Of a stretch of DNA of 64,000 bases, positions 5,440 through 60,688 are shown piece after piece; the stretch's first letter is position 1, and each line of letters starts with the position of its first letter. A program made the translations under genes and the position numbers. The stretch covers positions 15,513,501 through 15,577,500 of the forward strand of contig CM037596.1 of assembly GCA_021018995.1 (NCBI GenBank). Reading direction: 5' to 3'. This DNA comes from Chloranthus sessilifolius. Its lineage: Eukaryota > Streptophyta > Magnoliopsida > Chloranthales > Chloranthaceae. Below the pieces are notes generated by a model. It searched no databases. It saw only the letters and a list, made by a program, of their open reading frames with translations, and was not told the DNA's origin.

Positions 5440-5600
5440 GTCGATAGATCGACCCTTGTTGGTCGATGCATCGACATAGTTCGAAGAGTTTTAAATTCAA
5501 AAATTCAAACTCTAATCTGGTCGATCGATCGACCACTTAAGTCGATCAATCGACCAATTTCAAATTTGAATTTGAATTCTGGAATTGGATGATATTTAAA
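5440..5600 (+). promoter_or_regulatory. Element A core promoter: two dyad pairs plus TATA-like box
   Basis: Pair 1 is GTCGATAGATCGAC (5440-5453) and GTCGATGCATCGAC (5462-5475), centres 22 bp apart. Pair 2 is GTCGATCGATCGAC (5520-5533) and GTCGATCAATCGAC (5541-5554), centres 21 bp apart. 'GATATTTAAA' at 5591-5600 lies 37 bp after pair 2 and is the likely TATA box. Promoter function is inferred from position and from the same layout in the LTRs of B and C. Confidence 0.55.
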
Positions 5601-6914: not shown

Positions 6915-6973
6915 TGAGTTTCGATCGACTTGAACACTCGATCAATCGAACAAAAAAAAAATATATATATATC

Positions 6974-7020
<47 letters not shown>

Positions 7021-7215
7021 CAAATTTTAGATTCAAATTCTTGATCGATCGACCTAAACCCTCAATCAATCGGATGTTTCTTGATCGATCGATCGACCTA
7101 AACAATCGATCAATCGAATTAAAATATATAACAAAAAAATAATAATAAACAAAATCAAATTTCAAACTTTAATTTCCTTGATCGATCGATCGACCTAAAC
7201 AGTCGATCAATCGAA
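6915..7215 (+). repeat. Leader array of paired GATCGATCGAC / ATCAATCGA motifs with (AT)n
   Basis: Between primer site and gag are four pairs of TCGATCGATCGA-like and TCGATCAATCGA-like words (near 6921, 7042, 7081 and 7179), each pair split by a 'CTWRAACA'-like spacer. An (AT)n tract (6960-7018) lies among them. The layout copies the U3 pairs. Confidence 0.7.
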
Positions 7216-12991: not shown

Positions 12992-14851
12992 TAATGTGAT
13001 TTTTAATTGTGATGTTTTACTCGCAAGCGCACAAATCAGATTGTAGATAGTGGGTGCAAAGTACGAGATCGTTCCCACGAGAACTATTTTGGAAGATCTA
13101 AAAAGATGAGACAGTAATTCAAGAAATCTACTAAGATTTAACAGTGCCCTACCAATATTATAATTTAGGTGGTTTTATGAGATGATAGTTACTGACTACA
13201 AAATAAAGTTTAATTGATGATTCAAAAATAAGGGTAAAGATGAAGATACTAAATCCTCACATCTTTGGTTTGCTCTTCCCGTAATACAAATCTAAGGATT
13301 AAACTATGAGATATACCATTAAAAAAATATATATCTTTTATGGAAGATAAATGGTCAAAATCCGGATAGGTTCCACGTTGCATCCCTGCAATCAGGACTT
13401 AATTTCAGGGATGATTTTCATATATAGATCTAGGATCAAAGGCATGGCTCGGCACACTTGATCTCAGATTTCAAATAAAAATCATCCTCAAAGTGGGTAA
13501 AAATTCCAACAAGAATACCACCATAGATCTAAGATCAAGGGCATGACTCGACACACTTGATTCTAGATTAGGGAATAATTAAGATAAAATTACCATTACA
13601 GATCCAAGATCCAGGGCATGGCTCGGCACACTTGATCCCGGATCATAATCGTAAGTAGATTCACACGATGAAAGCAAAAAGACCATATAATAATGATTGG
13701 GTAAAATTACCATCACAGATCTGAGATCCAGGGCATGACTCGGCACACTCGATCCCAATTAGTGACAGAGATTTCATCCGTTCATGAAAGCATAACAACC
13801 ATAAAACACAATCTCATATTTTAATCCTAGATTCATATTATTAGAAGCACATCCCTTGGATGGGAATCATTAGATCCCCATCCCTAAGAAATTAGCCACA
13901 CATGCTGTAATTAAATAACAAACAAATAAGGAATGAAAAATAATATCAGTTTAATTAATTAAAAATATCTCAACCTTCAATAGAAACTCTTTGATCCACA
14001 AGTACGATGATCTTCATAAACGAAATTAACAATGCTCTTTACTAATCTTTAAATTTAAACTAAGAATCAACTTAACAAAAATACTAAATTGAAGAAAGGA
14101 GTGCTGAAAAGATTAAGGGAACAAAGCTCTCAAAAGAATAAAAAATCTCTATCTCTACGTCTAACTGTGAAAAAGAAAAATCTAATCTAGCTCTCTGAAG
14201 AATAGTCTCGAGTTGTTGGTTTTTCCTTTAAATACTCTCCAAGTCGCGCAGGTTTCCTGGCTCGAAAAGTCAGGGTCGATGCATCGACCCTCCTAAAAAT
14301 CTGCACTAGGAGTCACTTCCGTCTCAAATGGAGTTACTTTACTCGATTAATCGAGTAAAGGGTCGATTAATCGACCTTCCCTTTATTCTGCAACCAAACA
14401 GTGCCTTTTGTGTCAGAGTCTGTCACTTTTCTCGATTAATCGAGTGTAAGGTCGATTAACCGACCTTCCCAGATTTTCGTGAACTCCCGCCCAACTTTGT
14501 ATCACACACTACCTCGATATTTCAGCCATAACTTTCTACTCTGAACTCGAATTGACATGATTCTTACGGAATTGGAAAGATGATGAAAAGCTCTACAACG
14601 TTTGTGTTTTAGAAATTTCATAAATCTGACGTCTTAAAGGTCCAAATTGATCTGCAAGTCGCACCAAGTTCTCGATGGCCCAAAGTTGCAGTGTTTTGAC
14701 ATTATTTTCAGAATTCTTGGGCTGTTTTATGTGCTTGGATTGTATTTACCTGAAACACTTTAAATCTCATAATTCTCATCAGATAGCCTTCATCGGACAG
14801 CTAAATGTAGGTATTTAAGGGTGAAATATCATCATATTTCACTACCTATCA
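12992..14851 (-). repeat. 3' LTR of element B
   Basis: On the minus strand it starts TGATAGGTAGTGAAATATGA after a purine tract (GGTTTGGGGGTG) and ends in ...CACATTA next to the GTAAT duplication. Shows two complete dyad pairs plus a lone dyad at 14276, R-U5 hairpins (about 13430-13770) and the conserved U5 end near 13000-13080. Confidence 0.9.
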
Positions 14852-16547: not shown

Positions 16548-16594
<47 letters not shown>

Positions 16595-18148
16595 CAACTG
16601 TCGATTAATCGATTCAAAGAAGTTGATTGATCGAGAGTGGATGGTTGATCAATCGACCTTCATTGTCGATTGATCGAGAAAAAGTTAATTTTAATTTTTT
16701 TTTCATAAAAAATAAATAAATGACGCAAAATAGATAACCATACCCCCAAACCGAAAGATGACAATGTCCTCATTGGTTGAAATAAGTATTGCACCCCCAA
16801 ACCTGTTGAAAAGTACCTCAACACAAATATCAGGGGCAGAAAATATGTGCATCAAATTGGAACATGACTAAAAGTTTATTGAAGGTAATATGGTTATACT
16901 ATTTAGGGAATTAAAAACAACTTAAACTAAATGAAAAACTAATATTTGAGAACTAAACATACGAAAGAAAGAAATCCTAAATCCTAAATCCTAAATCATA
17001 AACTAAACCTGAGTCCAACTCCTTTAATCATTGTTAGGCGGGCCCATCCACCTTGGTTCACTTAAACCGATGTTCTTAGGCACAGAGAATAATTTCTCCC
17101 AGAGTTTAAGCGGAAATTGATGAGTCACCGCTGATGGTATGAATGGAGGCGTTGAGGCGACAGTAGGAGATAGATATGGGGGAGGTGGTGACGGAATCAC
17201 ATCAATTATCTCGATATCAGTATTGATGTACGGTATAGGAGATTTGAAACGTCTTTCTAGATGGTTCTCCCCCGGAAGGAATGATCATCGGATCTAGGTC
17301 GATGATTTCAATAGTGCTAGGCTCAAAAGGGATCGTTCGATGAGTGCGGTTCTCCCTCTTTTTAGCAGTCTCCCCCATCTTTGATAACCGTGCTCTTGTG
17401 AGATAGAATCGTCGGGCCATGGGAAGGTTGTGCAAGATGTGATGGAAAGTGAGCCTAAGGGTGAATATAAGGAGAAAATTGATAGAGTTGGAGTAGGAGT
17501 GGAAAGAGGTGTCCCGCAACAAAGAATTAATAAAAAGTGTGGTAGTACGCTTGAGGGACTCCAAATAATAAAGGAAATTGAAAAGTAGAGTCCCAATAGG
17601 TATCCGGTCCCAAAAAGTGGGGGTCGATTAATCGACCCTGGGGGGTCGATGCATCGACTCCCCAAATTATGCCTGCTTCGAAAAGGAAGCGGTCGATTAA
17701 TCGAGTATAACCCTCGATTAATCGACTATATGTGGGCAGAGGTGAAATTGCTTTGTTTGTTGGGTTTTTTTTTTCTTATTTTTTCATTATTTTTTTTTTC
17801 GTTTGCACCTCAACTCTTCTAAATGCAACATGAAATCCACAACAAAATGGGCAGTCCCAAACATATTAGAAACCACTTTTTCATTAATAAACATGTTGAT
17901 TACAAGGGCACTTCTGATTTGATTCTTAAAATAAACAACCTAAACTAAAGAAAGAAAAACAAAACAAAACAAAAAATCCTAAACTAATCATCTCCGTCTT
18001 CTTCGGCCTGGCAGGCCGTGGCGCGCATGTCATCATAACTATCAGGCCACATGCGCTGCTCGATCTGATGGAGGAAGGAACGATCATAGTAGCTTCGGCG
18101 CAAAATCGCATCATGTTGCCGCTGATGCTCCTCTTGTAAAGAATTAAT
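14852..18148 (-). other. 3' untranslated region of element B
   Basis: Matches, inverted, the stretch between integrase and 3' LTR in block C (57.1-59.3 kb). Shared words include the polypurine-type TTTGGGGGTG repeated near 14855, 16740, 16795 and a 'GAGGACAT' word near 16765. It holds T-rich/A-rich tracts (15690-15830), an (AT)n (16557-16592) and dyads at 16593-16680 and 17619-17725. No convincing ORF. Confidence 0.7.
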
Positions 18149-19175
18149 TTAGGGTTTGAGTGAACCAAGAGACACACCCTCATCGGGTCCCTGATCAGGC
18201 TTAGGCTGGTCGTCCTGGCGTACGCGGCGGTGCTGGCATGGTGGAGCAAGTTGGGCCGGTGCATCAGCAGGGACATTACCCAAGAGACGCATACTGCAAT
18301 TCCATTGGGTCGCACTATAGTGATAGAATGCGAGGTCCCCGAGATCGTCATCCCGATAGAACAGAAAACGAAGGAAATTAAGCAGCTTCATTACCAAATG
18401 AGGAAAGTAGATCATCGCGGCATCACTAGTGGCAGGGTTGGCGACATCCTCATGGCATCGCCACATGCCACCATGAAGAAATCCGGGCACATTGATCCAT
18501 GTATTTCGATAGGCACCATAAAGGGTGTGCTGCGTGGCCCGCAAAGGCGGAAGGTTACTACAGACCACACCATCCCAGAACAAAATCGGGCACGGTAACG
18601 CCAATCGCCTAGTTGCGACTCCCGAAGAAAATATGTCGCGACACATATCGTTGATTATATCCTCCAGAGAACTGTCGAGCTCTTCACCCAAAGTGTGATT
18701 GAGAGGGCGCTCGCACGAAATGTAAAAACCTCCGCAATTGTTTGTGGATAAACACGGCGCGACCACCCATCGATTGAAATAGTAAAGTAAGCAACGACAT
18801 GATTTTCAGCGGAGGCGTCCACCCATGCCATGTTTTGATAGAATAACCGAACGACCCGTTCGGACACTTTGATCACAGGCGGTTTGAGAAGGAAATGGAC
18901 GTTAATAGCCCTTGCATACGGGATGGAGACGGTGCAGACTGGCATGGTCTGAAATGCCACGAGATTGAAAAGATATTCAGAAGAAAGATCTCGGGACTCG
19001 AAGCGACCACGCGGCTGCTCACGTGGATGACCTGCAGGACGTTGGGAAAGCCTTTGCGGCACGGCAGATGACGAAGCCATGACAGCACTAGCGGAATGTC
19101 AGAGACTGGTAGAGAAAAGACAGGATAAAGAACGAATGAAAGGGAAGAGAGACTGCTGCCCTTAAGTAGGCGCAA
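18149..19175 (-). pseudogene. ORF of element B resembling Athila 'putative plant transposon protein'
   Basis: Starting at the ATG at 19080 (MASSSAVPQRLSQRPAGHPR), with an upstream ATG at 19175 in another frame. Visible text: an Arg/Gln-rich N-terminus, 'RVVRLFYQNMAWVDASAENH' with 'SIDGWSRRVYPQTIAEVFTF' (the pattern V-R-x-FY-x-N ... hydrophobic ... P-x-T-I), then 'NDMCRDIFSSG' and 'NTWINVPGFLHGGMWRCHED' followed by 'DAAMIYFPHLVMKLLNFL'. This order matches the domain of unknown function carried by many plant Athila-like elements; the match is from memory of the family pattern. Function unknown. Broken, about one or two breaks. Confidence 0.5.
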
Positions 19176-19201
19176 AGGCGTCCTTTCGGGACGGTCACAC
19201 C

Positions 19202-19244
19202 GTATATAGTCGATTAATCGACCTTATAGGGTCGATTAATCGAC
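19202..19244 (-). promoter_or_regulatory. Putative internal promoter of element B
   Basis: On the minus strand a perfect dyad pair (two GTCGATTAATCGAC at 19231-19244 and 19209-19222, centres 22 bp apart) is followed at once by TATATAC (19202-19208). The ATG at 19080 lies about 120 bp downstream. This copies the dyad-pair-then-TATA layout of the LTRs. Confidence 0.45.
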
Positions 19245-19749
19245 GCCAGTATGAAAAGGCACGGCTTTAACTGCATCGCATGGAAACACGCAACGACTTC
19301 GAATGGGAAGACGCAACGGCCGGAAATAGAAAAGTTGATTAATCGACACTCGAAGTCGATGCATCGACTCTAATCGAGGTAGTGAAAAGACAAAAAATGC
19401 ATGCACAGAATTTAAGTCGATTCATCGACTCCTAGAGTCGATGAAACGACTCCATTAAAAAAAACAACCTGACAGAATCTAAAAAGGCAGCACGATCTTC
19501 AACACAGATTAGTCGATGCATCGACTCTAGGAGTCGATTAATCGACTAACATAAAAATCAGCCAACAATAAATGCAGATTGCCTCGGAAAAGGGCCACTC
19601 ATTAAAACTATCGATTAATAGACTTGAAGAGGTCGATTAATCGAGGGTGGATGGTCGAATAATCGACCTCCATTGTCGATTAATCGAGAAAAAGTAAAAA
19701 AAAAAATTTTTTTTTTTATTTTTTTTTATTTTAGAGGAAAATTGCAAAA

Positions 19750-20700: not shown

Positions 20701-20889
20701 ATGTGCATCGCATTTCTATAAATAGCACATGATTCTGAATTGAATACATGCATTGACATGATTTCACCAATAACACCATTTATTTATTATTATTATTTTT
20801 TTCTTTTTTAGCAAAGATACTGTTTTAATCCATGGAAATTCTTAAAATTAACTGTTTATTTCCTAAAAATTTAGATTTTCTTGATTTAA

Positions 20890-20907
20890 TCTCCGACAAC
20901 GATGCCA
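20890..20907 (-). other. Primer binding site of element B
   Basis: Minus strand reads TGGCATCGTTGTCGGAGA, the Athila-type primer site with C-to-T style changes, six bases from the LTR end at 20914. Confidence 0.8.
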
Positions 20908-20913
20908 AAAACT

Positions 20914-22797
20914 TGATGTAATTTTTAATTGTGATGTTTTACTCGCAAGCGCACGAATCAGATTGTAGATAGTGGGTGCGGAGTACGAGATCGTTCCCAC
21001 GATGACTATTTTGAAAGATCTAAAAAGATGAAACAGTAATTCAAGAAATCTACTAAGATTTAACAGTGCCCTACCAATATTATGATTTAGGTGATTTTAT
21101 GAGATGATAATTACTGACTATAAAATAAAGTTTAATTGATGATTCAAAAATAAAGGTAAAGATGAAGATACTAAATCCTCCCATCTTTGATTTATTCTTC
21201 CTGTAATGCAAATCTAAGGATTAAACTATGAGATATACCATTAAAAAAAATATATCTTTTATGGAAGATAAATGGTCAAAACCCGGATAGGTTCCACATT
21301 GCATCCCTGCAATCAAGACTTAATTTCAGGGATGATTTCCATATATAGATCTGGGATCAAGGGCATGACTTGGCACACTTGATCTCAGATTTCAAATAAA
21401 AATTATCCCCAAAGTGGGTAAAAATTCTAACAAGAATACCACCATAGATCTGAGATCAAGGGCATGGCTCGACACACTTGATTCCAGATTAGAGAGTAAT
21501 TAAGATAAAATTACCATTACAGATCCAAGATCCAGGGTATGGCTCAGCACACTCGATCCCGGATCATAATCATAAGTAGATCCACACGATGAAAGCAAAA
21601 AGACTATATAACAATAATTGGGGTAAAATTACCGTCATAGATCTGATATCCAGGGCATGGCTCGACACACTCGATCCCAGTTAGTGGCGGGAATTTCATC
21701 CGTTCGTGAAAGCATAACAACCATAAAACAAAATCTCATATTTCAATCCTAGATTCATATTATTAGAGGTACATCCCTCATATGGGAATCATTAGATCCC
21801 CATTCCTAAGAAATTAGCCACACATGCTGTAATTAAATGACATAAACAAATAAGGAATGAAAACTAACATCAGTTTAATTAATTAAAAATACATCAACCT
21901 TCAATAGAAATTCTTTGATCCACAAGTACGATGATCTTCAGAAACGAAATTAACAATGCTCTTTACTAATCTTTAAATTTAAACTAGGAATCAACTTAAC
22001 AAAAATACTAAATTGAAGAAATGAATGCTAAAAAGATTAAGGGAACAAAGCTCTCAAAAGAATAAAAAATCTCTATCTCTACATCTAGCTGTGAAAAAGA
22101 AAATTCTAATCTAGCTCTCTGAAGAATAGTCTCGAGTTGTTGGTTTTTTCTTTAAATACTCTCCAAGTCGCGCAAGTTTTCTGGCTCGAAAAGTCAAGGT
22201 CGATTAATGGACCTTATAGGGTCGATGCATCGACCCTCCTAAAAATCTGTACTAGGAGTCACTTCCGTCTCAAATGGAGTTACTTTACTCGATTAATCGA
22301 GTAAAGGGTCGATTAATCGACCTTCCCTTTATTCTGCAACCAAACAGTGCCTTTTGTGTCAGAGTCTGTCACTTTTCTCGATTAATCGAGTGTAAGGTCG
22401 ATTAATCGACCTTCCCAGATTTCCGTGAACTCTTGCCCAACTTTACATCAGATACTGCCTCAGTATTTCGGCCATAACTTTCTACTCCGAGCTCGGATTG
22501 ACATGATTCTTGCGGTATTGGAAAGATGACGGAAAGCTCTACAATGTTTGTGTTTTAGAAATTTTATAAATCGGACGTCCTGAAGGTCCAAATGGAGCTG
22601 CAAGTCGCACCAAGTTCTCGATGTCCCAAAGTTGCAGTGTTTTGACATTATTTTCAGAATTCTTGGGCTGTTTTATGCACTTTGATTGTATTTACCTGAA
22701 ACACTTCAAATCTTATAATTCTCATCAGATAGCCTTCATCGGACAGCTAAATATAGGTATTTAGGGGTGAAATATCATCATATTTCACTACTCATCA
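20914..22797 (-). repeat. 5' LTR of element B
   Basis: 1884 bp, next to the primer site on its low side and the GTAAT duplication on its high side. Dyad pairs lie at 22199-22234, 22288-22321 and 22377-22410, at a regular ~89-bp spacing. The TATA-like 'GTATTTAAAG' (minus strand) is near 22152-22161, about 38 bp beyond the pair closest to R. R-U5 hairpins lie at about 21350-21690. Confidence 0.9.
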
Positions 22798-28879: not shown

Positions 28880-28917
28880 ATTACTTCATTCATCACATTT
28901 AGGCAATTAGGACTTTA

Positions 28918-45511: not shown

Positions 45512-45897
45512 TGATGAGTAGTGAAATATGATGATATTTCACCCCTAAATATTTACATTTAGCCGTCCGATAAAGGCTATCTAATGAAAATTACTAGATT
45601 TTAAGTGTTTTAGGTAAATACAATCCAAGTGTATAAAACAGCCCAAGAATTCTGAAAATAATGTCAAACACTGCAGCCTTGGGTCATTGAGAACTTAGTG
45701 CGACTTACAACTCAATTTGTACCCTCAAGACGTCAAATTCGTGAAATTGCTAAAACCCAAACGCTGTAGAGCTTTCTATCATCGTTCCAATGCCACATGA
45801 CTCGTGCCAATCCGAGTTCGGGATAGAAAGTTATGACCAACATACTAAGACAATATCTGATGGAGAGTTTGGCTGAAGTTCACGAAAATCTAGGAAG

Positions 45898-46068
45898 GTC
45901 GATTGATCGACCTTTCAGTCGATCGATCGACCAAAATGATAGAGTTTGAGACGGAAAAGACTTCTAATGCATATTTATAGGGAGTCGATCGATCGACTTC
46001 CTCTAGTCGATTGATCGACCCTAGCAGTTCGGGTTAGGAAAGCTGCGAGACTTGGAGAATATTTAAAG
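45898..46068 (+). promoter_or_regulatory. Block C LTR core promoter: two dyad pairs plus TATA-like box
   Basis: Pair 1: GTCGATTGATCGAC (45898-45911) and GTCGATCGATCGAC (45918-45931), centres 20 bp apart. Pair 2: GTCGATCGATCGAC (45984-45997) and GTCGATTGATCGAC (46006-46019), centres 22 bp apart. Pairs are 86 bp apart. AATATTTAAAG at 46058-46068 starts 38 bp after pair 2. Confidence 0.55.
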
Positions 46069-46540
46069 CCAAAACAAACAACACGTTGAGGGATTGATTT
46101 TTTTTCATAGAGGTAGATAGACGTAGACATAGAGATATTTATTTTGAGAGCTTTTTTGTTCTTTTACCTTCTTATTTTAACATTCCTTTCTTGAGAGAAT
46201 ATTATTTTTGCTCAATTAATTTCTAGTTTAAATTTAGAGATTAGTGGAGAGTATTTTTAATTTCATTTCTAAAGATCATTATACTTGTGGATTAAGTTTG
46301 GATCAAGGAATTGTTATCGAAGGTTCAAGTATTTTTAATTAATTAGATCAATGTTATTTTTCATTTATTACTTTTTTATGTCATTTAATTACAACATGTG
46401 TGGCTAATTTCTTAGGGATGGGGATCTAATGATTCCCATCCGAGGGATGTACTTCTAATAGTATAGATCTAGGATTAAACTTTGAGATTTTATTTTATAG
46501 TTATTATGCTATCACGAACGGATGAAATCCCCGTCACTAA

Positions 46541-46876
46541 CTGAGATCGAGTGTGCCAAGTCATGCCCTAGATCTTAGATCTGTGACGGTAATTTTACCC
46601 CAATCATTGTTATATGATCTTTTTATTTTTATCGTGTGAATCTACTTACGATTACGATCTGGGATCAAGGGTGTCGAGTCATGCCCTAAATCTTAGATCT
46701 GTCATGGTAATTTTATCTTAATTACTTCCTAATCTGAAATCAAGTGTGCTGAGTCATGCCCTTGATCTCAGATCTATGGTGGTATTCTTGTTGGAATTTT
46801 TTACCCACTTTGGAGATGATTTTTATTTGTAATCTGAGATCAAGTGAGCCGAGTCATGCCCTTGATCTCAAATCTA
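46541..46876 (+). repeat. Four tandem R-U5 hairpins with conserved loop
   Basis: Stems such as AATCTGAGATCAAG with CTTGATCTCAAATCT (46831-46875) and AATCTGAAATCAAG with CTTGATCTCAGATCT (46731-46775) enclose a 16-nt loop close to TGTGCYGAGTCATGCC. Weaker members lie at 46541-46585 and 46656-46699. The same set appears in all Athila-type LTRs here of the B/C group. Confidence 0.7.
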
Positions 46877-47311
46877 TATATGAAAATCATCTCTGAAATT
46901 AAGTTATGATTGCAGGGATGCAATGTGGAACCTATCTGGGTTTTGACCATTTATCTTTCATAAAAGATATTTTTCAATGGTATATCTCATAGTTTAATCC
47001 TTAGATTTGTATTATGAGAAAAATAAACCAAAGATAGGAGAATTTAGTATCTTCATCTTTACCTTTATTTTTGAAATATTAATTAAGCTTTATTTTGTAA
47101 TCAGTAATTATCTTAGCTCACAAAATTGCCTAAATCATAATATTAGTAGGGTACTGTTAAATCTTGGAAGATTTCTTGAGTTCTGTTTCATCTTTTTAGA
47201 TCTTCTACACTAGTCCTCTTGGGAATGATCTCGTACTCCGCACCCACTATCTACAATCTGATTCGTGCGCTTGTGAGTAAAACATCACAATTAAAAAGTA
47301 CATCAAGTTTT

Positions 47312-47329
47312 TGGCACCATAACCGGGGA
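47312..47329 (+). other. Primer binding site of block C
   Basis: TGGCACCATAACCGGGGA, Athila-type, six bases after the LTR. Confidence 0.85.
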
Positions 47330-47689
47330 TTAAATCAAGAAAATCTGAATTTTTTGAAAATAGACAGTTAATTTTAGGAATTTCTGGGATTAAAACAGTA
47401 TTTCTGCTTTAAAAAAAAAAAAATTGAGTATCGATCAATCGACTCCAAAAAAAAAATATCCGCAAATTTTTTTTTTTTTTAAATAATAATAAAATAAAAA
47501 ATAATCTCTTTCTTTCCTGAAACCTCCACTCTACGCGTCATTTGCATGCACACTAGGTCTTCTAAAGAAAGAACTTTAGAGCCTTTAAATTCTGAGATCG
47601 AACGTGCTTGCCGGTCAAATCGTGAGGACACTAGATCAAGGTGACAATTTTCAAGTGAATCATCCACTGAAGTCAATATGACTGACAAC

Positions 47690-49560
47690 ATGAATGGACA
47701 AATCAAACAAGGATAAGAGGAAGAACCAACATTGAGAGAACTGTTTTCTCCAATCACTACAAATACCCCATCATGTATTGTATACCCCGCCACACCTGGC
47801 GGCCGGATTAAAATCCGTATAAATGTCATCCAAATCCTTCCAATCTTTCATGACGTGGGGAGAGATGATCCATACTAGCACGTTAAAGACTTCGTTGAAG
47901 TCTGCTCATCTGTATACCAAAACTTTAGCAAAGAATCTGTTAGGCTACGCGTGTTTCCTTTCTCTATAAAGGATAAAGTAAAAGCTTGGTGAAATTCTTT
48001 ACTATCGGGATCCATAACCACCTGGGATCAGATGGTCAAAAAGTTTCTGTCAAAGTTCTTTCTCATGGCGAAGACGAATACCCTCAGACATGAAATCATG
48101 GACTTCACGCAAGAGAAAGATGAGAGATTCTATGAAGCTTGGGATAGATTCATGGATCTCCTACTCAAATGTCCACATCATGAATTCTCAAAGTGGAGAT
48201 TGGTCCAGTGTTTCTACAATGGACTAAGTCAACCAAGTAGACATCTGGTGGAGTCAATGAATGGTAGAGGATTTCTGAGCCTCAAGGAAACTGAATCTTA
48301 TTGTTTCCTAGAAAAGCTGGCCGAGGATTCCCAGTACTGAGATTTCACAAAGACTCGGGAACAATCAGTCAAATCTTGTGATCGAGTCAGAAATTCAACC
48401 AAGAAGGGAGGACTATACGTAGTAAAGGATTCTCCGAATCTGATGGCTAAAATTAATTTTCTCACTCAGCAAATGGAAGAATTGAAATTGAAGAAGAATG
48501 TGCATATGATAAATACATAACCCGAACCATGTTCAATTTGTGCAAGTCCAATGCATATAGCAAATGACTATCCTTCAATGCAGAACTACCATGAAGATAC
48601 ATCTGAACAGCTAAATATTATGAATAACTACGGGCGAAATCAAGGAAACATTTTCAATGAGAATAACCCAAATAGTTGGAGAAACCACCCAAATTTCTCG
48701 TGGAAACAAGATAATCAAATAACACAGTCTAGACAACAGGGGATGCACTACTATCCCCAACAAAATTTCAACCAAGGACCGCAACAGCACTATAGTCAAG
48801 GACAACTTCAGCAGCAAGGGTTCAATAATCTAAATCAATTTCAATACAATCAAAATCAGGTTGGGCAGCCACGATAATTAAACCAGAATTTTTAGTTTGC
48901 ACAATCAATGGGAGGTTATTAAAACCAACCACAACAAAATTTTGTGCCAACATTTCCACCACCCAAATTTATCAATCCACTGGGAAATGCTGCCCAGCGC
49001 CCTCATACACAAACTCCTTCTACTGAGGACATGTTGAAACTTATCCATTCTCACACATCCTCAATCTCTAAAATAGAGACTCAAATTGGGCAATTGGCAA
49101 CTCTTCTTTGTGAAAGAGAAAAAGGATCGTTTTCCAGCCAACCAATTCCCAACCCAAGGGGTCAGATGGTTGTTAAACAAATACCAACTTCTTCACAAGA
49201 TGATAATCAATAACAAATTCGGTCGATCACAACGTTGAGATTAAGAAAGCAGGTCGATAACAAAGTAGTGTTGTCAGAGGAGAAGGGAAAGTCTGATGGA
49301 GAGAAGAAATTTGAAGAGAAAGAAGAAATGAAGAAAAAGTAAAAGCAAAAGAAACGACAGAAGAAAAGAGTGAACAGAAGAAAAGTTTTGCTCCTAAAGC
49401 ACCATACCCTCAAAGATTGATGGCACCACGAAAAAATCGCGATGTGGAAGGAATAAATGAGATTTTCAAGCAGTTAAAAATTAATATTCCCTTCCTGGAT
49501 GCCATCCGACAAGTGTCTGCTTATGCAAAATTTTTGAAAGAATTGGTCACAATCAAAAGA
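47690..49560 (+). pseudogene. gag remnant, first copy in block C
   Basis: Matches the gag at 54785 piece by piece: 'MVKKFLSKFFLMAKTNTLRH', 'DERFYEAWDRFMDLLLKCPH', 'EKLAEDSQY', the Gln-rich tail, and at the end '[20 protein letters not shown]', the usual Athila gag/protease boundary text. Broken, several breaks. Confidence 0.8.
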
Positions 49561-49884
49561 AAGACTAATATTCGTTAGAAAGGTTAGAAACTCGATTTGT
49601 TATAAGCGAAACTCCCAATTAAATACAAGGAGTTCCTACAATCTCAATCATCATCGATACATCGGACCCTTTTTTAGGATCGAGTGTTAATTGTTCTTTT
49701 ACTGTTATAAATTGATCTTTTCATGACACGCCATTTATCGGTCGCTTATCGAAATTGTCATGTCTCATCAAGATGTTTCACTTTCGATGGATTCTTTTAT
49801 AATTTGTTGATTTAAAGCCTCGAATCAATCTGGTATTCGAAAGGCGACGTCATGCAATTGAGCGTTTTTGAAAAAGAATAAGTC

Positions 49885-52464
49885 AAGATGTAATCTACTA
49901 TGCAAGTTGCACTCAATCAATGCCCAGGGCTTGAACTATTTCAATCACCGAAGGAACTTTAGCTGTAGTTTTCGTTGATAAATTTCCCCGATCCTATTTA
50001 TTAGGTCAGTGGTATTTATCACGCCGCTTTACATTATCTATTCGCTAAGAAAGATGCTAAAGCACGCTTAATCAAATGGATCTTGTTATTGCAAGAGTTG
50101 TTCTTAGATCAATGGTATGGTAATTGCTCGGTGACTAAGTAATTGATAAGATCCACATACCAAGGCAGGCAGTCAATCCCGAACAACTGTTCATCCGGGA
50201 AGTGCTCTAAGATCTAAACATGATCGTCAGATTTCTCAATAATTATTCGTGACAAGTGATCTGCCATCACATCTTCTAAGCCTTTCTTGTCTTTGATTTT
50301 CAAATCAAACTCTTGCAACAACAAGATCCATCTGATTAAGCGTGCTTTAGCATCTTTCTTAGTGAATAGATAACGTAGGGCAGCGTAATCTGTAAATACC
50401 ATGACTTTAGACTCTAATAAATAGGATCGAAATTTATCTAACGTAAAACTACCATCAAAAGTTCCTTTTCGATAATCGAGTAGTTCAACTGGGCATCGTT
50501 GAGAGTGCGACTCGCATAGTAGATTACATGCAATAATTTTTCTATTCTTTGTCCCAGAACAACTCCAATTGCATAATCAGAGGCGTCGCACATAATTTCG
50601 AACGGAAAGTCTTAGTTCGGAGATTGAATTATCGGGGCTTTTATCAACTCAGCCTTGATGGTTTCAAAGGCTTGCAAACATTTATCGTCAAAGATGAATG
50701 GGACATCTTTTGAAAGTAAGTTACATAGCGGTCGCACTATCTTGCTGAAATCTTTAATAAAATACCGAAAAAACTCGGCGTGTCCCAGAAAAGATCTTAT
50801 TTCCTTAACTGTCCTCGGTGGTGGTAGATTGGCAATTAAATCAACTTTAGCCTTATCGACCTCAATACCCTGGGACGATATGATGTGTCCTAAAATAATG
50901 CCATCTTCAACCATGAAGTGACATTTTTCTCAGTTAAGAATAAAGTTCTTCTCCTGGCATCTTGCAAGCACTAGCGACAAATGATTCAAGCAGTCGGCGA
51001 AACTGTTTCCATGGATTGAGAAGTTGTCCATGAAAACTTCGAGGAATCATTCGACCATATCCTAAAAAATACTCAGCATACATCTTTGGAATGTAGCTGG
51101 TGTATTATAAAGCCCAAACGGCATTCGTCGGTAGGAGAAAGTACCAAAAGGACATGTGAACGTGATTTTCTCTTGATCCTTAGGTGCAATGACTATTGGT
51201 TATAATCGAAATAGCCATCGAGGAAGCAATAGTAATCATGCCCGACCAGTCTTTCTAACATCTGATCGATAAACAGAAGTGGAAAGTGATCTTTCCTTGT
51301 CATCAAATTTAACTTCTGATAATCGATACACACTCTCCAACCTGTTTGAATTTTTGTAGGAATGAGTTCGTTGTCCTCATTCTTCACCACTGTGACTCCC
51401 GACTTCTTAGGGACCACTTGTGTGGGGCTAACCCATTTACTGTCAGAGATGGGGTATATGATTCCAGCATCTAAAAGTTTTATTACCTCATTTCGGACCA
51501 CGTCTTGTATTATAGGGTTCAGTCTCCTCTGTGGTTCCCTAGAGGGCTTAGCATTGTCTTCCAAATAGATTCAGTGCATACACACCGTCGGACTAATGCC
51601 TTTGACATCTTTTATCGACCATTCGATGGAAATGTTGTGATCTTTGAGCACATTCATGAGTTGGCCTTCCTGATTTGCATTCAATTTTGATGAGATTATG
51701 ACGGGTTGAGTTTCATTCTCCCCTAGGTAGGCATACTTAAGATTTTTCGGAAGAGGTTTAAGTTCTAATGACACTTTCTCCTCCTCTTTCGGTTTTTTCT
51801 TGCTTAATTCAATTTGAACTCCAAAATCTCTATTCTTTTCTTCTCCCAGAAGCGGTGTGGAGTCCAACATTTGATTCACTTCTTGGAACATCAAATCTAC
51901 ATCAAAATTTTCTCCAAAATGTGTAAGACAAGCTGCTAAAGGATCTTCAATTTCGGATGCATGAAATGTTTCTTCCACGATTTCATCGATTATGTAGGCT
52001 TGTGCATGCTCGTCATCCTCCATGGGTTGCTTGGCAATATTAAAGATGTTGAGTTCCACTATCATATTCCCGAATGACAGATTCATGATCCCGTTTTGAC
52101 AATTGATTAGCGCATTGGAGGTTGCTAGGAATGGTCTTCCTAGAATCACCGAAATGCTATTCTTCAAATTTGGTACCGATTCAGTGTCTAAAATAACAAA
52201 ATCTACAGAAAAGTAGAAAGAATCCACCTTGATGAGGACATCTTCTACAATTCCTCGAAGAATCTTTATTGACCGATCAGCTAACTGAAGGGTCATCGCA
52301 GTGGACTTAAGCTCTCTCAATTTAAGCTCCTTGTAAACAAAGTAAGGCAACAAATTGACACTCGCTCCTAAATCCAAAAGGGCCTGATCAATGCGGTTAT
52401 CGCCGATGACGATTGAGATTATAGGACAACCTGGGTCCTTATATTTAATTGAAAAAAATCTCAA
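49885..52464 (-). pseudogene. Athila protease-RT-RNase H pieces, mostly inverted
   Basis: On the minus strand 52464-51571 reads an aspartic protease region ('DQALLDLGASVNLLP', 'NSISVILGRPFLATSNALIN'). Then come RT pieces ('VVPKKSGVTVVKNE', 'TGWRVCIDYQKLN', 'EVDKAKVDLIANLPPPRTVK') and RNase H ('[20 protein letters not shown]', 'VMADHLSRI') down to 50214. A short RNase H piece in plus orientation lies at 49885-50100, so the RNase H region is present as inverted copies about 200 bp apart. Opposite orientation to the surrounding LTRs and gag. Broken. Confidence 0.8.
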
Positions 52465-52499
52465 ATATAAAATCCTCTTTCATCTATCTTCACATGAAA

Positions 52500-52933
52500 A
52501 ATAAAAAATCTCATAATGCATTATTGATCCAAAATGAATAAAATCTCAATACAATTTAATTTCATATATAGATTTGGGATCAAGGGCGACTAACACTTGA
52601 TCCATTCAAATAAAATCATTTCAGAAAGTCTTGGGTAAAATTTCCAAACTCAGAATTTCAATTGAATCAAGATTAAGGGCATGATCTTCATTTTTTTGAC
52701 TTTAGGGAGTAATGATAAAATTCCATCACAGATAAGCTTCCATCGCATAACTATTTTCAACCGATTTTGGCCATGATTTCATGGCATTGGAAAGATGGCG
52801 CAACCATAGCTTTACAATCTTAAAATTTCACGATCTCGACTTTAAAGGTCCAATTTTGAATGAACACTGTTAGATCCCATCTGCAGTGTTTGACATTATT
52901 TTCGAAATTCTTGGGCTATTTTATGCATGCTCC
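52500..52933 (-). repeat. Decayed Athila-type LTR remnant, minus orientation
   Basis: Follows, in compressed form, the B-type LTR read on the minus strand: 'ATATAGATTTGGGATCAAGG', a ferrying hairpin-like 'CTTGATCC', then 'GTGTTTGACATTATTTTCGA' and 'ATTCTTGGGCTATTTTATGC'. It precedes the inverted pol, as a 5' LTR would. Confidence 0.6.
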
Positions 52934-54633
52934 AGTAGTGAAATATGATGATATTTTACCCCTAAATACTTACATTTAGTCATCTGATGAAAGCTATCTA
53001 ATGAGAATTACTAGATTTGAAGTGTTTCAGGTGAATATAATCCAAATGCATAAAACAGCCCAAGATTTCCAAAAATAATGTCAAACACTGCAACCTTGGG
53101 TCATTGAGAACTTAGTGCGACTCGCAGCTCAATTTGGACCTTTAAGACGTCAGATTCGTGAAATTGTTAAAACACAAAAGTTGTAGAAATCTTTGTCATC
53201 TTTCTACGGCCATAAGAATCATGTCAATCTGAGTTCGGAATAGAAAGTTATGGCCGAACTACCGAGGAAGTATCTGATGGAGAGTTGGGCTGAAGTTCAC
53301 GAAAATCTGGGAAGGTCAATTGATCGACCTTTCAGTCGATCGATCAACGGAAATGATGGAGTTTGAGACGGAAAAGACTTCTAATGTAGATTTATAGGGA
53401 GTCGATCAATCGACTTCCTCTAGTCGATTGATCGACCCTGGCAGTTCTGGTTAGGAAAGCTGTGAGACTTGGAGAATATTTAAAGCCAAAACAAACAACA
53501 CGTTGGGAGATATTTTTATTTTTTCATAGAGGTAGATAGACATAGAGATAGAGATTTTATTTTGAGAGCTTTGTTGTTCTTTTACCTTCTTGTTCTAGCA
53601 TTCCTTTCTTCGGAGAATTTTATTTTTGCTCAATTAATTCCTAATTTAATTTGGAGATTAGTAGAGAGTATTTTTAACTTCGTTTTGAAAGATTATTATA
53701 CTCGTGGATTAAGTTTGGATCAAGGAATTGCTATTAAAGGTTGAGGTATTTTTAAATAATTTGATCAATGTTATTTCAATTATTACCTTTTTATGTCATT
53801 TAATTACAACATGTGTGGCTAATTTCTTAGAGATGGGGATCTAATGATTCCCATCTGAGAGATGTACTTCTAATAGTATAGATCTAGGATTAAACTTTGA
53901 GATTTTATTTTATGGTTATTATGCTATCACGAACGGATGAAATCTCTGCCACTAACTGAGATCGAGTGTGCCAAGTCATGCCCTGGATCTTGGATCTGTA
54001 ATGGTAATTTTATCTTAATTACTCCCTAATCTGAAATCAAGTGTGTCAAGTCATGCCCTTAATCTCAGATCTATGGTGGTATTCTTGTTGGAATTTTTTA
54101 CCCACTTTGGAAATAATTTTTATTTGTAATCTGGGATCAAGTGTGCCGAGTCATGCCCTTGATCCCAGATCTATATATGGAAATCATCTCTGAAATTAAG
54201 TTCTGATTGCAGGGATGCAATGTGAAACCTATCCGGATTTTGACCATTTATCTTCTATAAAAGATGTTTTTCAATGGTATATCTCAAAGTTTAATCCTTA
54301 GATTTGTATTACAGGAAGAACAAACTAAAGATAGGAGGATTTAGTATCTTCATCTCTACCTTCATTTTTGAATTATCAATTATTTCTACCTTTATTTTTG
54401 AGTTATCAATTAAACTTTATTTTGTAGTCAGTAATTATCTTATCTCATAAAATTGCCTCAATCATAATATTGGTAGGGTACTATTAGATCTTGGTAGATT
54501 TCTTGAGTTACTGTTTCATCTTTTTAGATCTTCTAAATTAGTCCTCGTGAGAACGATCTCGTACTCCGCACCCACTACCTACAATCTGATTCGTTCGCTT
54601 GCGAGTAAAATATTACAAGTAAAATTTACATCA
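52934..54633 (+). repeat. Second plus-strand LTR inside block C
   Basis: AGTAGTGAAATATGATGATA ... TTTACATCA, 1.7 kb, with dyad pairs (53315-53350, 53400-53440), hairpins (about 53955-54180) and the U5 end, then part of a primer site at 54637. Confidence 0.88.
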
Positions 54634-54784
54634 AGTTTTTGGCGTCGTTTGCATGCACACTAGGTCTTCTAAAGAAATAACTTTAGAGCATTTAAATTCT
54701 GAGATCGAATGTGCTTGTCGGTAAAATCGTAAGGACGCTAGATCAAGGCGACAATTTTTAAGTGAACCATCCACTGAAGTCAAT

Positions 54785-56530
54785 ATGGCTGACAACATGA
54801 ATGGACAAATCGAACAAGGACAAGAGGAGGAATCAACATTGAGAGAATTATTTTCTCAAATCACTACAAATACCCCATCATGCATTGTATACCCCGCCAA
54901 ACCGGGCGGCCGATTTGAAATCCGTATAAATGTCATCCAAATCCTTCCAATCTTTCATGACATGGAGAGAGAAGATCCATACCAGCATGTTAAAGACTTC
55001 GTCGAAGTCTGCTCATCTGCACACCAAAACTTCAGCGAAATATCTGTTCGACTAAGCTTGTTTCCTTTCTCTATAAAGGATAAAGCAAAAGCTTGGTTAA
55101 ATTCTCTACCATCGAGACCTATAACCACCTGGGATCATATGGTCAAAAAGTTTCTGTCAAAATTCTTCCCCATGGTAAAGACGAATGCCCTCAGACGTGA
55201 AATCACGGATTTTACACAAGAGGAAGATGAGAGATTCAATGAAGCTTGGGATAGAGTCATGGATCTCCTTCTCAAATGTCCACACCATGGATACTCAAAG
55301 TGGAGATTGGTTCAATATTTCTACAATGAACTAAGTCAACCAAATAGGCATCTGGTGGAGTCAATGAATGGCGGAGGATTCTTGAGCCTCAAGAAAACTG
55401 AATCTTATTATTTCCTAGAAAAGCTGGCCGAGGATTCCCAGCATTGGGATTTCACAAAGACTCGGGAACAACCAGTCAAAGCTCGTGATCAAGCCAAAAA
55501 TTCAACCATGAAGGGAGGACTATATGTAGTAAAGGATTCTCCGGATCTGATGGCTAAAATTGATTTCCTCACTCAGCAAGTGGAAGAATTGAAATTGAAG
55601 AAGAATGTGCATATGATAAATACACAACCCGAGCCATGTTCAATTTGTGCAAGTCCAATGCATATAACAAATGACTATCCTTCAATGCAGAACTACCATG
55701 AAGACATATCTGAACAGCTAAATATTATGAATAACTATGGGCGGAATAAAGGAAACGTTTTCAATGAGAATAACCTAAATAGTTGGAGAACCCTCCCAAA
55801 TTTCTCGTAGAAATAAGATAATCAAAGAACACAGCCCAGGAAATAGAGGACGAACTTCTATCCCCAACAAAATTTCAACCAAGGACCGCAGCAAAACTAT
55901 GGTCAATGACAATTTCAACAGCAAGGATTCAATAATTTAAATCAATTTCAATATAATTAAAATCAGGTTGGGCAGCCACGACAATTAAATCAGAATTTTC
56001 AGTTTGCACAACCAATGGGAGGTTATCAAAACCAACCACAACAAAATTTTGTGCCAACATTTCCACCACCCGGATTTAACAATCCGCTGGGAAATGCTGC
56101 CCAATGTCCTCATACACAAACTCCTTCTACTGAGGACCTGTTGAAACTTATCCATTCTCGCACATCCTCAATCTCTAAAATAGAGACCCAAATTGGATAA
56201 TTGGCAACTCTTCTCTGTGAAAGAGAAAAATGATCGTTTCCTAACCAACCAGTTCCTAACCCAAGGGGTCAGATGGTTATTGAACAAACACCAACTTTCT
56301 CACAAGACGATAATCAATAACAAATTTGGGTGATCACAAAGTTGATATCTGGAAAGCAGGTCGATAACAAAGTAGTATTGCCAAAGGAGGAAGGAGAGTC
56401 TGATGGAGAAAAAAAATTTGAAGAGAAAGAAGAAATTGAAGAAAAATTACAAGCAAAGGAAACGACAAAAGAAAAGAGTTAACAGAAGAAAAATTTTGTT
56501 CCTAAAGCACCGTACCAGCAAAGATTGATG
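54785..56530 (+). pseudogene. gag, second copy in block C
   Basis: A 341-codon open stretch (54785-55810, MADNMNGQIEQGQEEESTLR) carries the Retrotrans_gag-type core: 'GGRFEIRINVIQILPIFHDM', 'LSLFPFSIKDKAKAWLNSLP', 'RREITDFTQEEDERFNEAWD', 'GGGFLSLKKTESYYFLEKLA', a coiled 'VEELKLKKN' segment and a 'CSICASPMH' word where a knuckle may have been. The Gln/Asn-rich tail continues in pieces to about 56530. Gag would build the particle. This is the best-kept retroelement protein of the window, but the tail is broken. Confidence 0.85.
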
Positions 56531-56589
56531 GCACCATAAAAAAATCGCGATGTGATTTTCAACCAATTAAAAATTAATATTCCCTTTCT

Positions 56590-57075
56590 GGATGCCATCC
56601 GACAAGTACCTGCTCATGGGTACTTGTCGCTAAAACTGAACAATGCTCTGTGGGCGTATCAAATTGCATTTAAAACTTCGATTGGCATGTCACCTTATCG
56701 GTTGGTCTTTGGTAAAAGTTGTCACCTCCCGATTGAACTGGAATATCGAGCATTTTGGGCCATCAAATCATTGAATTTTGATCTCCCGAAATCTGGTAAC
56801 CGGAGGAGTTTGCAAATAAATGAATTGGAAGAAATCCGTGCTGACGCATATGACTGTGCTAAATCTTACAAGGACCGTATGAAACGGGTTCATGATCAAT
56901 CTATTTTACGTAAATCTTTTGTTATTGGTCAGCAGGTTCTACTATACAATTCCCGACTTCACCTATTTCCAGGAAAACTAAAAACCCGTTGGAGTGGTCC
57001 ATTCAAAATCTCTCTAATACTTTCCAATGGAGCGGTTGATGTTATCAATCTTAGACATGGGAATATCTTTTGAGT
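56590..57075 (+). pseudogene. Athila integrase C-terminal part
   Basis: Reads '[20 protein letters not shown]', '[20 protein letters not shown]', '[12 protein letters not shown]', '[20 protein letters not shown]': the conserved end of Athila integrase (W-A-Y, SPY-LVFGK-CHLP-E-E, GKLKSRW-GPF). It directly follows gag, without protease or RT between. Fossil. Confidence 0.88.
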
Positions 57076-59348
57076 TAATGGTCAAAGATTAAAACTTTTC
57101 CTAGAGGATACAATTGCATTCTCTGACACTCTTTCCTTGAGTGATCCAATGGTTCACCCTGACTGAGCAATTCATATGGTCTAGCTATCGACATTAAACT
57201 AGCGCTCATTGGGAGGCAACCTAATTTTGTTTGATTTTATTTTATTTTATTTTATTTAAAAAATTAAAAAAAGATGGTTAGATACACCTATTTTTATGGT
57301 TGATTATGATTTTGATAGTGTTATTCGAGTAAGTATTTTGTTAGTTTTGATAATCCCCTCACTATTATTGACATTTTTTTCGTGTGAAGAGAATGCTTGG
57401 ATATACTGGTATATTTTCATGCAGGTTTAGGGGAGAATTTTTCCTACCTCTCCCCTTTTCAAGTGCTATCAAGCGCCTCAAATCATTACTCCAGGTATGT
57501 TTTCTCACTTTAATCTAATATTTTATTTATTGTCAACAATGAGGACATTATTTTGTTTAAGTTTGGGGGTGTAGTTTGTGTGATTTTATTATTTTGGTAC
57601 CTCTAAAATATAAATAAATAAATAAAATAATAATAATAATAATTTTTGGAGCTATCACACATGTTATTTTACGATTATTTTTAAACTTTAGTTGATGATG
57701 CATGTGAATTTAATTTTGAAAATAACTATGCCATATTTTGATTGCTTCTATCTAGGATGATAAAATCTAATGTAATAAATTGAGGATAGTCCTGAAATTT
57801 ATGCCTAGACATTTTTTACACTTATACCAATCTAAGATCTAGAAATTAAGGAACCAGTTTGAACTTTGAATCTTAGGTTCTTAGTGGAGACTAAACCCGG
57901 TGAGCTTTAGAGCTAATTTCATATCCTTGATGAGAGTTTACATAAACTCGGAGTTGTCTTTGAATATAAATTATTTTTGCATAATCTCATACATTTTATT
58001 TTGACTTGTGACTTTGCATGATATTAAATTTATATTATTGTGTTAGAACGTACTGTATATCTACTCAAGACAAATAGGTAAGGTTACCATCTTTTAAGGA
58101 CATGATTGAAGGCCATCTTTGGCTCGTTTGTGCTTAAAATATCTCACCTTATATAAATTTATCCTTCTAGTATCCCTTCGAGCTTATTAAAAATTTGCCT
58201 TTATATATTCTTTGGTAAGCCACGTTAACCTTTACCCTTGCACCATTTCTGAAAATTCAGCCTTACCCTCCTTATTTATGAGAAATTAGGAACAAGAGAT
58301 GAGAATGAATGAAAAGAGAGTAAGTGGAGAGATATCGAGTTGTGGTATTTACTGAGAATGTATGGTAGAAAAATAATAATAATAATTTATTTTTTTTTAA
58401 AAAGGAAGGGAGAAAAAGAAAACTATAAAAAATAATAAAAAATATGAGGTGCTTCAAGAAAATGAAATTCAAAAGGAAAAAAATAGTGAGAGATTAGAAA
58501 AGAAAAAGAAGAGAACTAGAAAAATCAAAAGTTAGTTTCTTTTTCGATTTCTCAGAAATTTTGAATCCCAACTTTCATTTCCTTTTTACCCTTACCTGAG
58601 CCCCATTACAACCCTAAAAAGACCTTCATGATCTGATCTTGCATTGGTAACTACCTTGTGGAGAGTGAATATGTGATACCTATGATACTTGATATGACAT
58701 GCGTAGGATATACAAATATATGTTCTTATGAGATTTACTTTTGTTCATTGATTATATCATGTTTCTTCTATCATGTGAGACCTTTTTTATTTGCTTTGTA
58801 TTGATCTCTCACATGTCTGCGAAAACTTATCCATCATCAGAGTGATTCTATTTCGAGAGTTTACCTAAAGTGAGGATTGAGTCGAGACAATAGATCCGAT
58901 GGTTTCCCGTTTGAACTAGTTCCGAGATAGATGAATCTTGATTTGGGTATGCACACACTTCACGTTTAGGCATGAATGGATGAGTTATCTAACAATTTGA
59001 GCATTAGATTAATTTGAATGGACACTAGCATGATTGACATGACATTAATATTTAAGATTAATGATTCACATATTAAAATAATTAATGTTTTTGTTTTTGG
59101 ATAGTATATATGTTATAAAAAAAGATCATGTTTTGAAAAATTAATTTTGCCGATGGTTTGAAATTTTTAAAAGTTTGTGGGTAACTTCACTGTAAGCCTT
59201 CAGGAGACACAACTCCTCCACTAGGGATCACCTAGGGGTTCAAAAGCTTGTTGCACAGGTTAAGTGCAATCGTACTCCCTACGAAAGTAGCATTTATCTT
59301 CTTTAGTTTGCTTTGCTCGAGGACTAGCAAAGTGTAGGTTTAGGGGCA
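57076..59348 (+). other. 3' untranslated region of block C
   Basis: Long non-coding stretch usual between integrase and 3' LTR in this group: 'GAGGACATTATTTTGTTTAA' then TTTGGGGGTG (57.57 kb), a region near 57.85-59.3 kb co-linear with element B (inverted), and the polypurine tract GGTTTAGGGGCA just before the LTR. Confidence 0.75.
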
Positions 59349-60688
59349 TGATGAGTAGTGAAATATGATGATATTTTACCCCTAAATACTTACATTTAGC
59401 CGTCCGATGAAGGCTATCTAATGAGAATTACTAGATTTGAAGTGTTTCTGGTAAATACAATCCAAATGTATAAGACGGCCCAAGAATTCTGAAAATAATG
59501 TCAAACACTGCAACCTTGGGTCATTGAGAACTTAGTGCGACTTGCAGCTCAATTTGGACCTTCAAGATGTTAGATTCATGAAATTGCTAAAACACAAACG
59601 TTGTAGAGCTTTCTGTCATCTTTCTAATGCCATAAGAATCATGTCAATCTGAGTTCGGGATAGAAAGTTATGGCTAAAATATCAAGGCTATATCTGGGAA
59701 GGGCGATTGATCGACCTTTCAGTCGATCGATCGACCGAAATGATGGAGTTTGAGATGGAAGAGACTTCTAATGCAGATTTATAGAGAGTCGATCGATCGA
59801 CTTCCTCTAGTCGATTGATCGACCCTGGCAGTTCGGGTTAGGAAAGCTGCGAGACTTGGAGAGTATTTAAAGTCAAAACAAACAACACGTTGGAGAGTAT
59901 TTATGCTATCATGAACGGATGAAATTCCCGCCACTAACAGAGATCGAGTGTGCCGAATCATGCCCTCGATCTCAGATCTGTGACGATAATTTTACCCCAA
60001 TCATTGTTATATGATCTTTTTATTTTTATTGTGTGGATCTACTTACGATTAGATCTGGGATCGAGTGTGCCGAGTCATGCCCTGGATCTTGGATCTGTAA
60101 TGATAATTTTATCTTAATTACTCTCTAATCTGAAATCAAGTGTGTCGAGTCATGTCCTTGATCTCAGATCTATGGTGGTATTCTTGTTAGAATTTTTTAC
60201 CCACTTTAGGGATGATTTTTATTTATAATCTGAGATCAACTGTGCTGAGTCATGCCCTTGATCCCAGATTTATATATGAAAATCATCTCTGAAATTAAGT
60301 TCTGATTGCAAGGATGCAATATGGAACCTATCTGGGTTTTGACCATTTATCTTCCATAAAAGATACTTTTCAATGATATATCTCATAGTTTAATCCTTAG
60401 ATTTGTATTATGGGAAGAACAAACTAAAGATAGGAGGATTTAGTATCTTCATCTTTACCTTTATTTTTGAATTATCAATTAAGCTTTATTTTGTAGTCAG
60501 TAATTATCTTAGCTCACAAAACTGCCTAAATCATAATATTGGTAGGGTACTGTTAAATCTTGGTAGATTTCTTGAGTTATTGTTTCATCTTTTTAGATCT
60601 TTTACATTAGTCCTCGTGGGAACGATCTCGTACTCCGCACCCACTATCTACAATCTAATTCGTGCGCTTGCGAGTAAAACCTACATCA
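59349..60688 (+). repeat. 3' LTR of block C
   Basis: TGATGAGTAGTGAAATATGA ... AACCTACATCA, 1340 bp, ending at the GCATC duplication. Dyad pairs at about 59703-59736 and 59787-59823. Confidence 0.9.

Follow-up and report, generated by a model that had tools for sequence, protein, structure and literature searches.

Athila-type retrotransposons carry a 14-bp dyad that is arranged in pairs, with centers about two helical turns apart, at a mostly constant distance upstream of a forward-oriented TATA-like box, and the same sites, pairing, spacing, box distance, and box orientation recur in the unrelated sequence of a candidate internal promoter in front of a 3' reading frame, ORF X. These features are read directly from the DNA. 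Our preferred interpretation, to which we assign a probability of roughly 0.6, is that the dyad is the site of a homodimeric activator serving two promoters per Athila-type element, with a host transcription factor as the more likely activator. One homodimer would read two RGTCGAT half-sites across the uncontacted 2-bp center of the dyad, and dyads 20–23 bp apart (~two helical turns) would place two dimers on one face of the helix, where they may bind cooperatively. The pair nearest the TATA-like box, TATTTAAA, would then act as an upstream activating element, its distance to the box being held fixed (mostly 45–48 bp). Athila-type elements would use such pairs twice, in the presumptive LTR promoter and in the presumptive internal promoter for ORF X, and the host factor would have been taken up independently by several transposon families.

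The dyad site and its pairing

Exact TCGATNNATCGA occurred 42 times in the window—i.e., the whole 64,000-nt stretch of DNA analyzed—compared to 0.12 expected and a maximum of 2 in 100 dinucleotide-preserving shuffles, and 26 of the 42 were GTCGATNNATCGAC. Outside the three stretches first noted lay 29 of these dyads: in element A they fall in the leader, in element B in the interior and the 3' LTR, and in element C in the leader and the remaining LTRs. Genome-wide (2.17 Gb, 32 contigs), GTCGATNNATCGAC was found 29,216 times and its reversed pattern, used as a control, 37 times; such dyad counts include many relatives, and independent events are fewer.

We analyzed the letters of the site in a sample made up of the window and 29 C1 loci (275,587 bases, 206 dyads), from which 8 overlapping loci were excluded. 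Inverted TCGAT half-sites were separated by a gap of 2 in 206 cases and by each other gap from 0 to 12 in at most 4. The core of the site is GTCGAT..ATCGAC, outside which G is preferred (73%), followed by a purine (76%). Among 118 non-redundant partner sites located 19–24 bp from an exact dyad, half-site letters were 90–99% conserved and the center was variable, although these sites were chosen by best match, which biases conservation upward. Of the 94 dyads in 47 non-redundant pairs, 91 had YR or GC as their center dinucleotide. The left center letter was A in only 1–2%. A strict gap of 2, conserved half-sites, and a variable center are what a dimer site predicts, and the dimeric regulator proposed in the first-pass annotation thus gains support as predicted binding.

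When partners carried one mismatch, it was a CpG transition in 22 of 34, which fits the expected decay of methylated CpG, and CG, CA, TG, and TA centers could be stages of one such decay at a position that the protein would not read. With respect to the rarity of GTCGATNNATCGAG relative to independence, the sole pattern counted was CTCGATNNATCGAG, at 3,711 occurrences. We found no report of the dyad motif in our searches of openly accessible papers and, among the matches listed there for its spellings, no plant retrotransposon paper by title. Some dyad arrays lie in an (AT)n context.

Pairing was equally pronounced. In the window, 39 of the 42 dyads were accompanied at 19–24 bp by a partner carrying no more than one mismatch, and for 30 the partner was exact; exact pairs with 7–11 bases between the 12-mers numbered 15, compared to 0 in 100 shuffles. 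The peaked spacing anticipated by the first-pass annotation was borne out across the genome, where 6,313 of the 7,141 pairs at a gap of 0–30 fell at a gap of 6–9, corresponding to centers 20–23 bp apart, while the control gave 0 pairs. Neighbor distances of up to 120 bp in the sample (n = 141) included 81 at 19–24 bp, 78 at 20–23 bp, and 0 below 19 bp. Sampled dyads had a partner at 19–24 bp with at most one mismatch in 188 of 206 cases (154 exact), a proportion raised by the sampling because most loci were found via exact pairs, so that the 39 of 42 in the window is the fairer estimate. The 47 non-redundant pairs, drawn from exact pairs at 19–24 bp, were spaced at 21 (23 pairs), 22 (14), 20 (4), 23 (3), 19 (2), and 24 bp (1). 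A chance origin of the dyads and their pairs is ruled out by the reversed control and the shuffles.

The two dyads of a pair could also be read as the arms of a stem of at least ~15 bp with a 4- to 7-base loop, having an RNA role (as a small-RNA source or in packaging) or forming a cruciform, with the spacing reflecting loop size. All six pairs chosen for folding were stable (z-scores –5.0 to –7.0), and the outer arms paired above shuffles at +1, +3, and +6 (P = 0.0075, 0.001, and 0.007; 61 non-redundant pairs, 22 positions tested). Small RNAs, moreover, are described as drawn to maize Sirevirus palindrome clusters in the accessible text of PMC10760457, citing Bousios 2016. However, a hairpin needs neither palindromic arms with a 2-bp center nor a fixed distance to a TATA-like box, and core mismatches in the 61 pairs comprised 0 compensated, 16 uncompensated, and 7 G-T cases. 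Reverse-complement centers were found in 32% of the 47 pairs, compared to 20% in shuffles (P = 0.02), an excess that family differences may cause. We therefore regard the hairpin as quite improbable. Flank-letter symmetry gave modest signals only, and the first dyad showed extra self-pairing at +2 (P = 0.0095 in the same 22-position test of 61 pairs).

A TATA-like box at a set distance, in the LTR and before ORF X

Genome-wide, forward TATTTAAA followed a dyad at a gap of 25–55 bases in 4,210 cases (2,176 + 2,034), compared to 98 (50 + 48) for the flipped box. From dyad center to box start, the distance was 45–47 bp in 72 of the 100 matches listed, all on C1, with 8 at 40 bp and 8 at 55 bp. 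Within 300 bp past a dyad, the sample held 31 forward and 6 flipped boxes, and 18 of the 31 forward ones started 45–48 bp from the last dyad center. A box 40–55 bp beyond the outermost dyad was present in 22 of 57 sampled clusters, against a density expectation of 0.006 per cluster. Variant boxes were TATTTGAA in locus L022, TATATATTTAAG in L010, and TACTTAAG before ORF X of element B. The U3 types of L005, L006, L013, L020, L021, and L027 had no box at 45–48 bp, nor was a TATA-like box seen at the usual distance from the leader pairs before gag or the pairs before ORF Y; leader and ORF Y pairs may work over a longer range or have a role unrelated to promoter activation. The fixed TATA distance of the first-pass annotation thus holds for the genome-wide matches and fails in several LTR subfamilies and in the leader and ORF Y modules. 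Its coordinates for all three elements agree with ours, as do its layouts for block C (two pairs, 20 and 22 bp, set 86 bp apart, with a box ~40 bp on), A (22 and 21 bp), and B (three pairs, 89-bp period).

Table 1. Dyad pairs, TATA-like boxes, and associated features of elements A, B, and C in the window
Feature	Position	Strand	Details
A U3, two pairs	5440..5554	+	5440/5462 (22 bp), 5520/5541 (21 bp); TATTTAAA at 5593
A leader dyad pairs, before gag	6938..7214	+	no TATTTAAA 40–55 bp beyond outer dyads
B 3' LTR dyads	14275..14464	-	four exact plus a single-mismatch dyad; TATTTAAA start at 14234, minus
B interior dyads	16600..16678	-	four, two with 1 mismatch, steps 21–22 bp
B ORF Y frame	17217..17627	-	related frames at other loci; no Pfam family matched
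B pairs upstream of ORF Y	17623..17726	-	two pairs; no matching TATA distance
B ORF X, two frames	18149..19098	-	19098–18655 (ATG at 19080), 18805–18149; related to PF20167 Transposase_32
B ORF X TATA-like TACTTAAG	19161..19168	-	~47 bp from last array dyad center; ATG 88 bp on
B array upstream of ORF X	19209..19688	-	12 dyads (at most 1 mismatch), mostly paired
B 5' LTR, three pairs, 89-bp period	22199..22410	-	22200 (one mismatch)/22222, 22289/22309, 22378/22398; TATTTAAA starts 22158 minus
First C LTR	45512..47423 (approximate limits)	+	self-BLAST vs 52934–54649, 59349–60680; boundary sequence inspected
C U3 dyad pair 1	45898..45931	+	GTCGATNNATCGAC at 45898, 45918; centers 20 bp apart
C U3 dyad pair 2, TATA-proximal	45984..46019	+	GTCGATNNATCGAC at 45984, 46006; centers 22 bp apart
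C TATTTAAA box	46060..46067	+	47 bp from last dyad center, ~40 bp past dyad end
Second C LTR, two pairs	53315..53436	+	both first-pair dyads with one mismatch; TATTTAAA at 53477
Third C LTR, two pairs	59702..59823	+	first dyad with one mismatch; TATTTAAA at 59864

An Athila-type 3' organization is seen in L021, where RNaseH and integrase are followed by ten dyads (at most one mismatch), TATTTAAA, and a PF20167-like ORF X, with gag outside the L021 stretch. RNaseH before integrase is the Ty3/gypsy order. The box of L021 lies 46 bp after the last dyad, with the ATG 93 bp later, and the corresponding dyad-to-box distance is 46 bp in L034 and 48 bp in L036. PF20167 matches were obtained for the ORF X homologs of L036 (E = 2.2e-11; 44.4 bits vs. 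a cut-off of 45), L034, and L021 (E = 0.0065), and no Pfam match was obtained for B's own ORF X pieces; the L021 integrase (rve) scored 28.3 bits vs. a cut-off of 32.6. In the window's own elements, pol was only partly seen, and the gag of C is PF03732. TTTTTGGCGTCGTT and TTTTTGGCATCGTTGTCGGAGA, located after the LTRs, may resemble the Athila tRNA primer site.

B-type elements (window 12991–22797, minus strand; L034; L036) keep two conserved ORFs, X and Y. A further B frame after the 5' LTR may, as judged by eye, be a gag remnant. Dyad positions repeat every 8.0–8.3 kb at C1:9240462–9258985 (part of it in L034) and C1:59318580–59342712, which suggests tandem LTR–interior–LTR arrays of a B-type element.

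With the dyads (at most 2 mismatches) and the TATA-like boxes masked, we compared the ORF X promoters of B, L021, L034, and L036 with those of 20 U3s. The best ORF X-to-U3 scores were 20–21, values reached by 18, 42, 32, and 36 of 60 shuffled sets. In contrast, the best match of each of the 20 U3s to another U3 scored 52–288, and none of 20 shuffled sets came up to this. When masking was limited to exact dyads in an earlier comparison, the internal promoters scored at best 19–23 against U3, level with or slightly above the single-shuffle maxima of 18–22, which can be explained by taking the best of many comparisons and by degenerate dyads left unmasked. That U3 and ORF X promoters have the geometry in common, but not the sequence, is our main argument for function; that one site and one geometry return in promoters otherwise unrelated in sequence also hints at a trans-acting factor.

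Since the 20 U3s form one homologous family, their different types do not count as independent recurrences, and the layout among them may be inherited; independence rests on the comparison of U3 with ORF X. In a pairwise test, A-type and C-type U3s were no more alike than shuffles. The same test, however, also missed the C and L036 U3s, although both LTRs belong to one homology network, and it therefore cannot show separate origin among U3s. It is for the ORF X promoters only that the set-wise test, with U3-vs.-U3 as its positive control, supports a separate origin.

These comparisons also bear on shared descent combined with tandem duplication, whereby one ancestral promoter was copied among relatives and the layout has no function. 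Of 57 sampled clusters, 48 (LTRs, leaders, and ORF X clusters) fell into one homology network, every U3 promoter was related to another, and the three 5' LTR pairs of B lie within an 87- to 89-bp tandem repeat that is ~74% identical in self-comparison, so that part of the B layout is duplication. However, ORF X clusters join the network via neighboring leader sequence, not U3; their promoters and those of U3 are alike in sites, spacing, and TATA distance only; and other families carry pairs. Moreover, the flanks of the two dyads within a pair were no more alike than in shuffles and are not direct repeats, which rules out tandem duplication as the whole cause of the pairs. Tandem duplication shared by descent, which the first-pass annotation would have counted against its own reading had it explained the pairs entirely, accounts for part of the B layout and leaves the unlike pair flanks and the geometry before ORF X unexplained. 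We judge functionless descent highly improbable.

A probable host factor or, less likely, a regulator of the element's own

Pairs are not confined to the main network. Five of the 57 clusters formed a second group, from element interiors. Another LTR family, L001/L002, with 41 genome matches, carries three pairs, TATTTAAA at least 93 bp downstream, and a PF03732 gag that scores at the cut-off and differs from the others; no ORF X was seen within its 3-kb loci. The use of pairs by unrelated families favors a host factor. At L029:4340–5040, dyad pairs occupy a stretch with no relation to the LTR families, and a hAT-like ORF follows after ~0.8 kb; a hAT-type transposase remnant at window 26402–28885 (minus; DUF4371 and dimerization region) has no exact dyads.

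The activator could instead be encoded by the elements themselves, a reading that we consider rather unlikely: a nuclear protein from ORF X or ORF Y would bind the dyads of its own element and activate or un-silence it, in the manner of the anti-silencing VANC proteins in VANDAL transposons, with other families riding along. Dyad arrays precede both ORFs and are also found in leader and U3. Both ORFs and dense arrays are retained in B, although it matched no gag or pol family in the 12 frames scanned (at least 75 codons). Of 110 ORF X copies scored (83–100% identity, out of 37,103 candidates), 48 had no internal stop. A sunflower Athila PF20167 protein is, in the accessible part of PMC11728184, given a predicted nuclear signal. 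Against such a regulator, L001/L002, with its different gag and no ORF X in view, and L029 carry pairs too, and ORF X had no sequence match among solved structures. Center letters cut both ways. Modules within one element tend to share them (at most two independent lineages), with TA/GC mostly in the B lineage (B, L034, and L036) and CG/CA/TG in L021, L020, and many other modules outside the B lineage, but these differences may reflect only CpG decay, and in A and L031 the letters are mixed. We hold it to be unlikely that ORF X or ORF Y is the element's own dimeric regulator in the fuller sense of a Ty3/gypsy counterpart of VANC, supplied in trans by pol-less derivatives and exploited by unrelated families.

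Known systems and neighboring observations

The nearest likeness to our preferred reading of a dimeric, probably host-derived, activator is the Sirevirus RM (Bousios et al. 2010, PMC2829016), in which palindromes lie in the LTR upstream of the TATA and upstream of the env-like gene, and for which the accessible text proposes a regulatory role. Here, too, palindromes precede the LTR TATA and a 3' gene (ORF X arrays in B, L021, L034, and L036). The RM core described there is, however, CGG-CCG except in Tnd-1 (ATCGAT core), in contrast to GTCGAT..ATCGAC, and the RM belongs to Ty1/copia and is called Sirevirus-specific, whereas our elements have a PF03732 gag (C) and RNaseH before integrase (L021). 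The accessible text of that paper describes neither a fixed pair spacing nor a fixed TATA distance, both of which are found here. Our case would thus work like the Sirevirus RM, yet judged by core and host element is not a member of it; what is added is that the sites are strictly paired, that their distance to the TATA is fixed, and that a concrete candidate for an internal promoter can be named. How 3' env-like ORFs of plant retrotransposons are expressed is treated as open in PMC2829016, with spliced RNA, stop-codon suppression, or an internal promoter as options, and the ENV internal promoter is, in the text accessible, not conclusively identified; before ORF X, by contrast, TATTTAAA stands in LTR geometry. 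A specific internal promoter is predicted here, with sites and distances as in the LTR promoter, and the putative trans-acting factor is searchable by pull-down or DAP-seq.

VANC/VANDAL (Nat Commun 2017, PMC5735166, as far as its text was accessible) is similar in having dense short sites in non-coding parts of one lineage, including before genes. Its 9-bp motif, however, has one orientation and is bound by an element protein in DNA transposons, whereas we find palindromic pairs in retrotransposons; and a VANC-type motif would be confined to one transposon family, whereas L001/L002 and L029 also carry pairs. The non-autonomous Athila elements of PMC2410132 are likewise pol-less but have gag and env ORFs, unlike B, for which no gag match was seen in 12 frames; the main text of that paper, so far as accessible, lacks the word "promoter", whereas candidate promoters are described here.

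Two further observations concern the interiors. In A, 10191–10490 gave a weak endonuclease/phosphatase match (E = 0.0013, below the cut-off) and is perhaps, judging by this match, a nested LINE fragment. In block C (window 45512–60680), two interiors and three LTRs related to one another stand in succession, and its first interior has a protease ORF (51571–52479) on the opposite strand. Since the protease relatives in L020 and L037 lie on the gag strand, downstream of gag, the C segment was either inverted or inserted.
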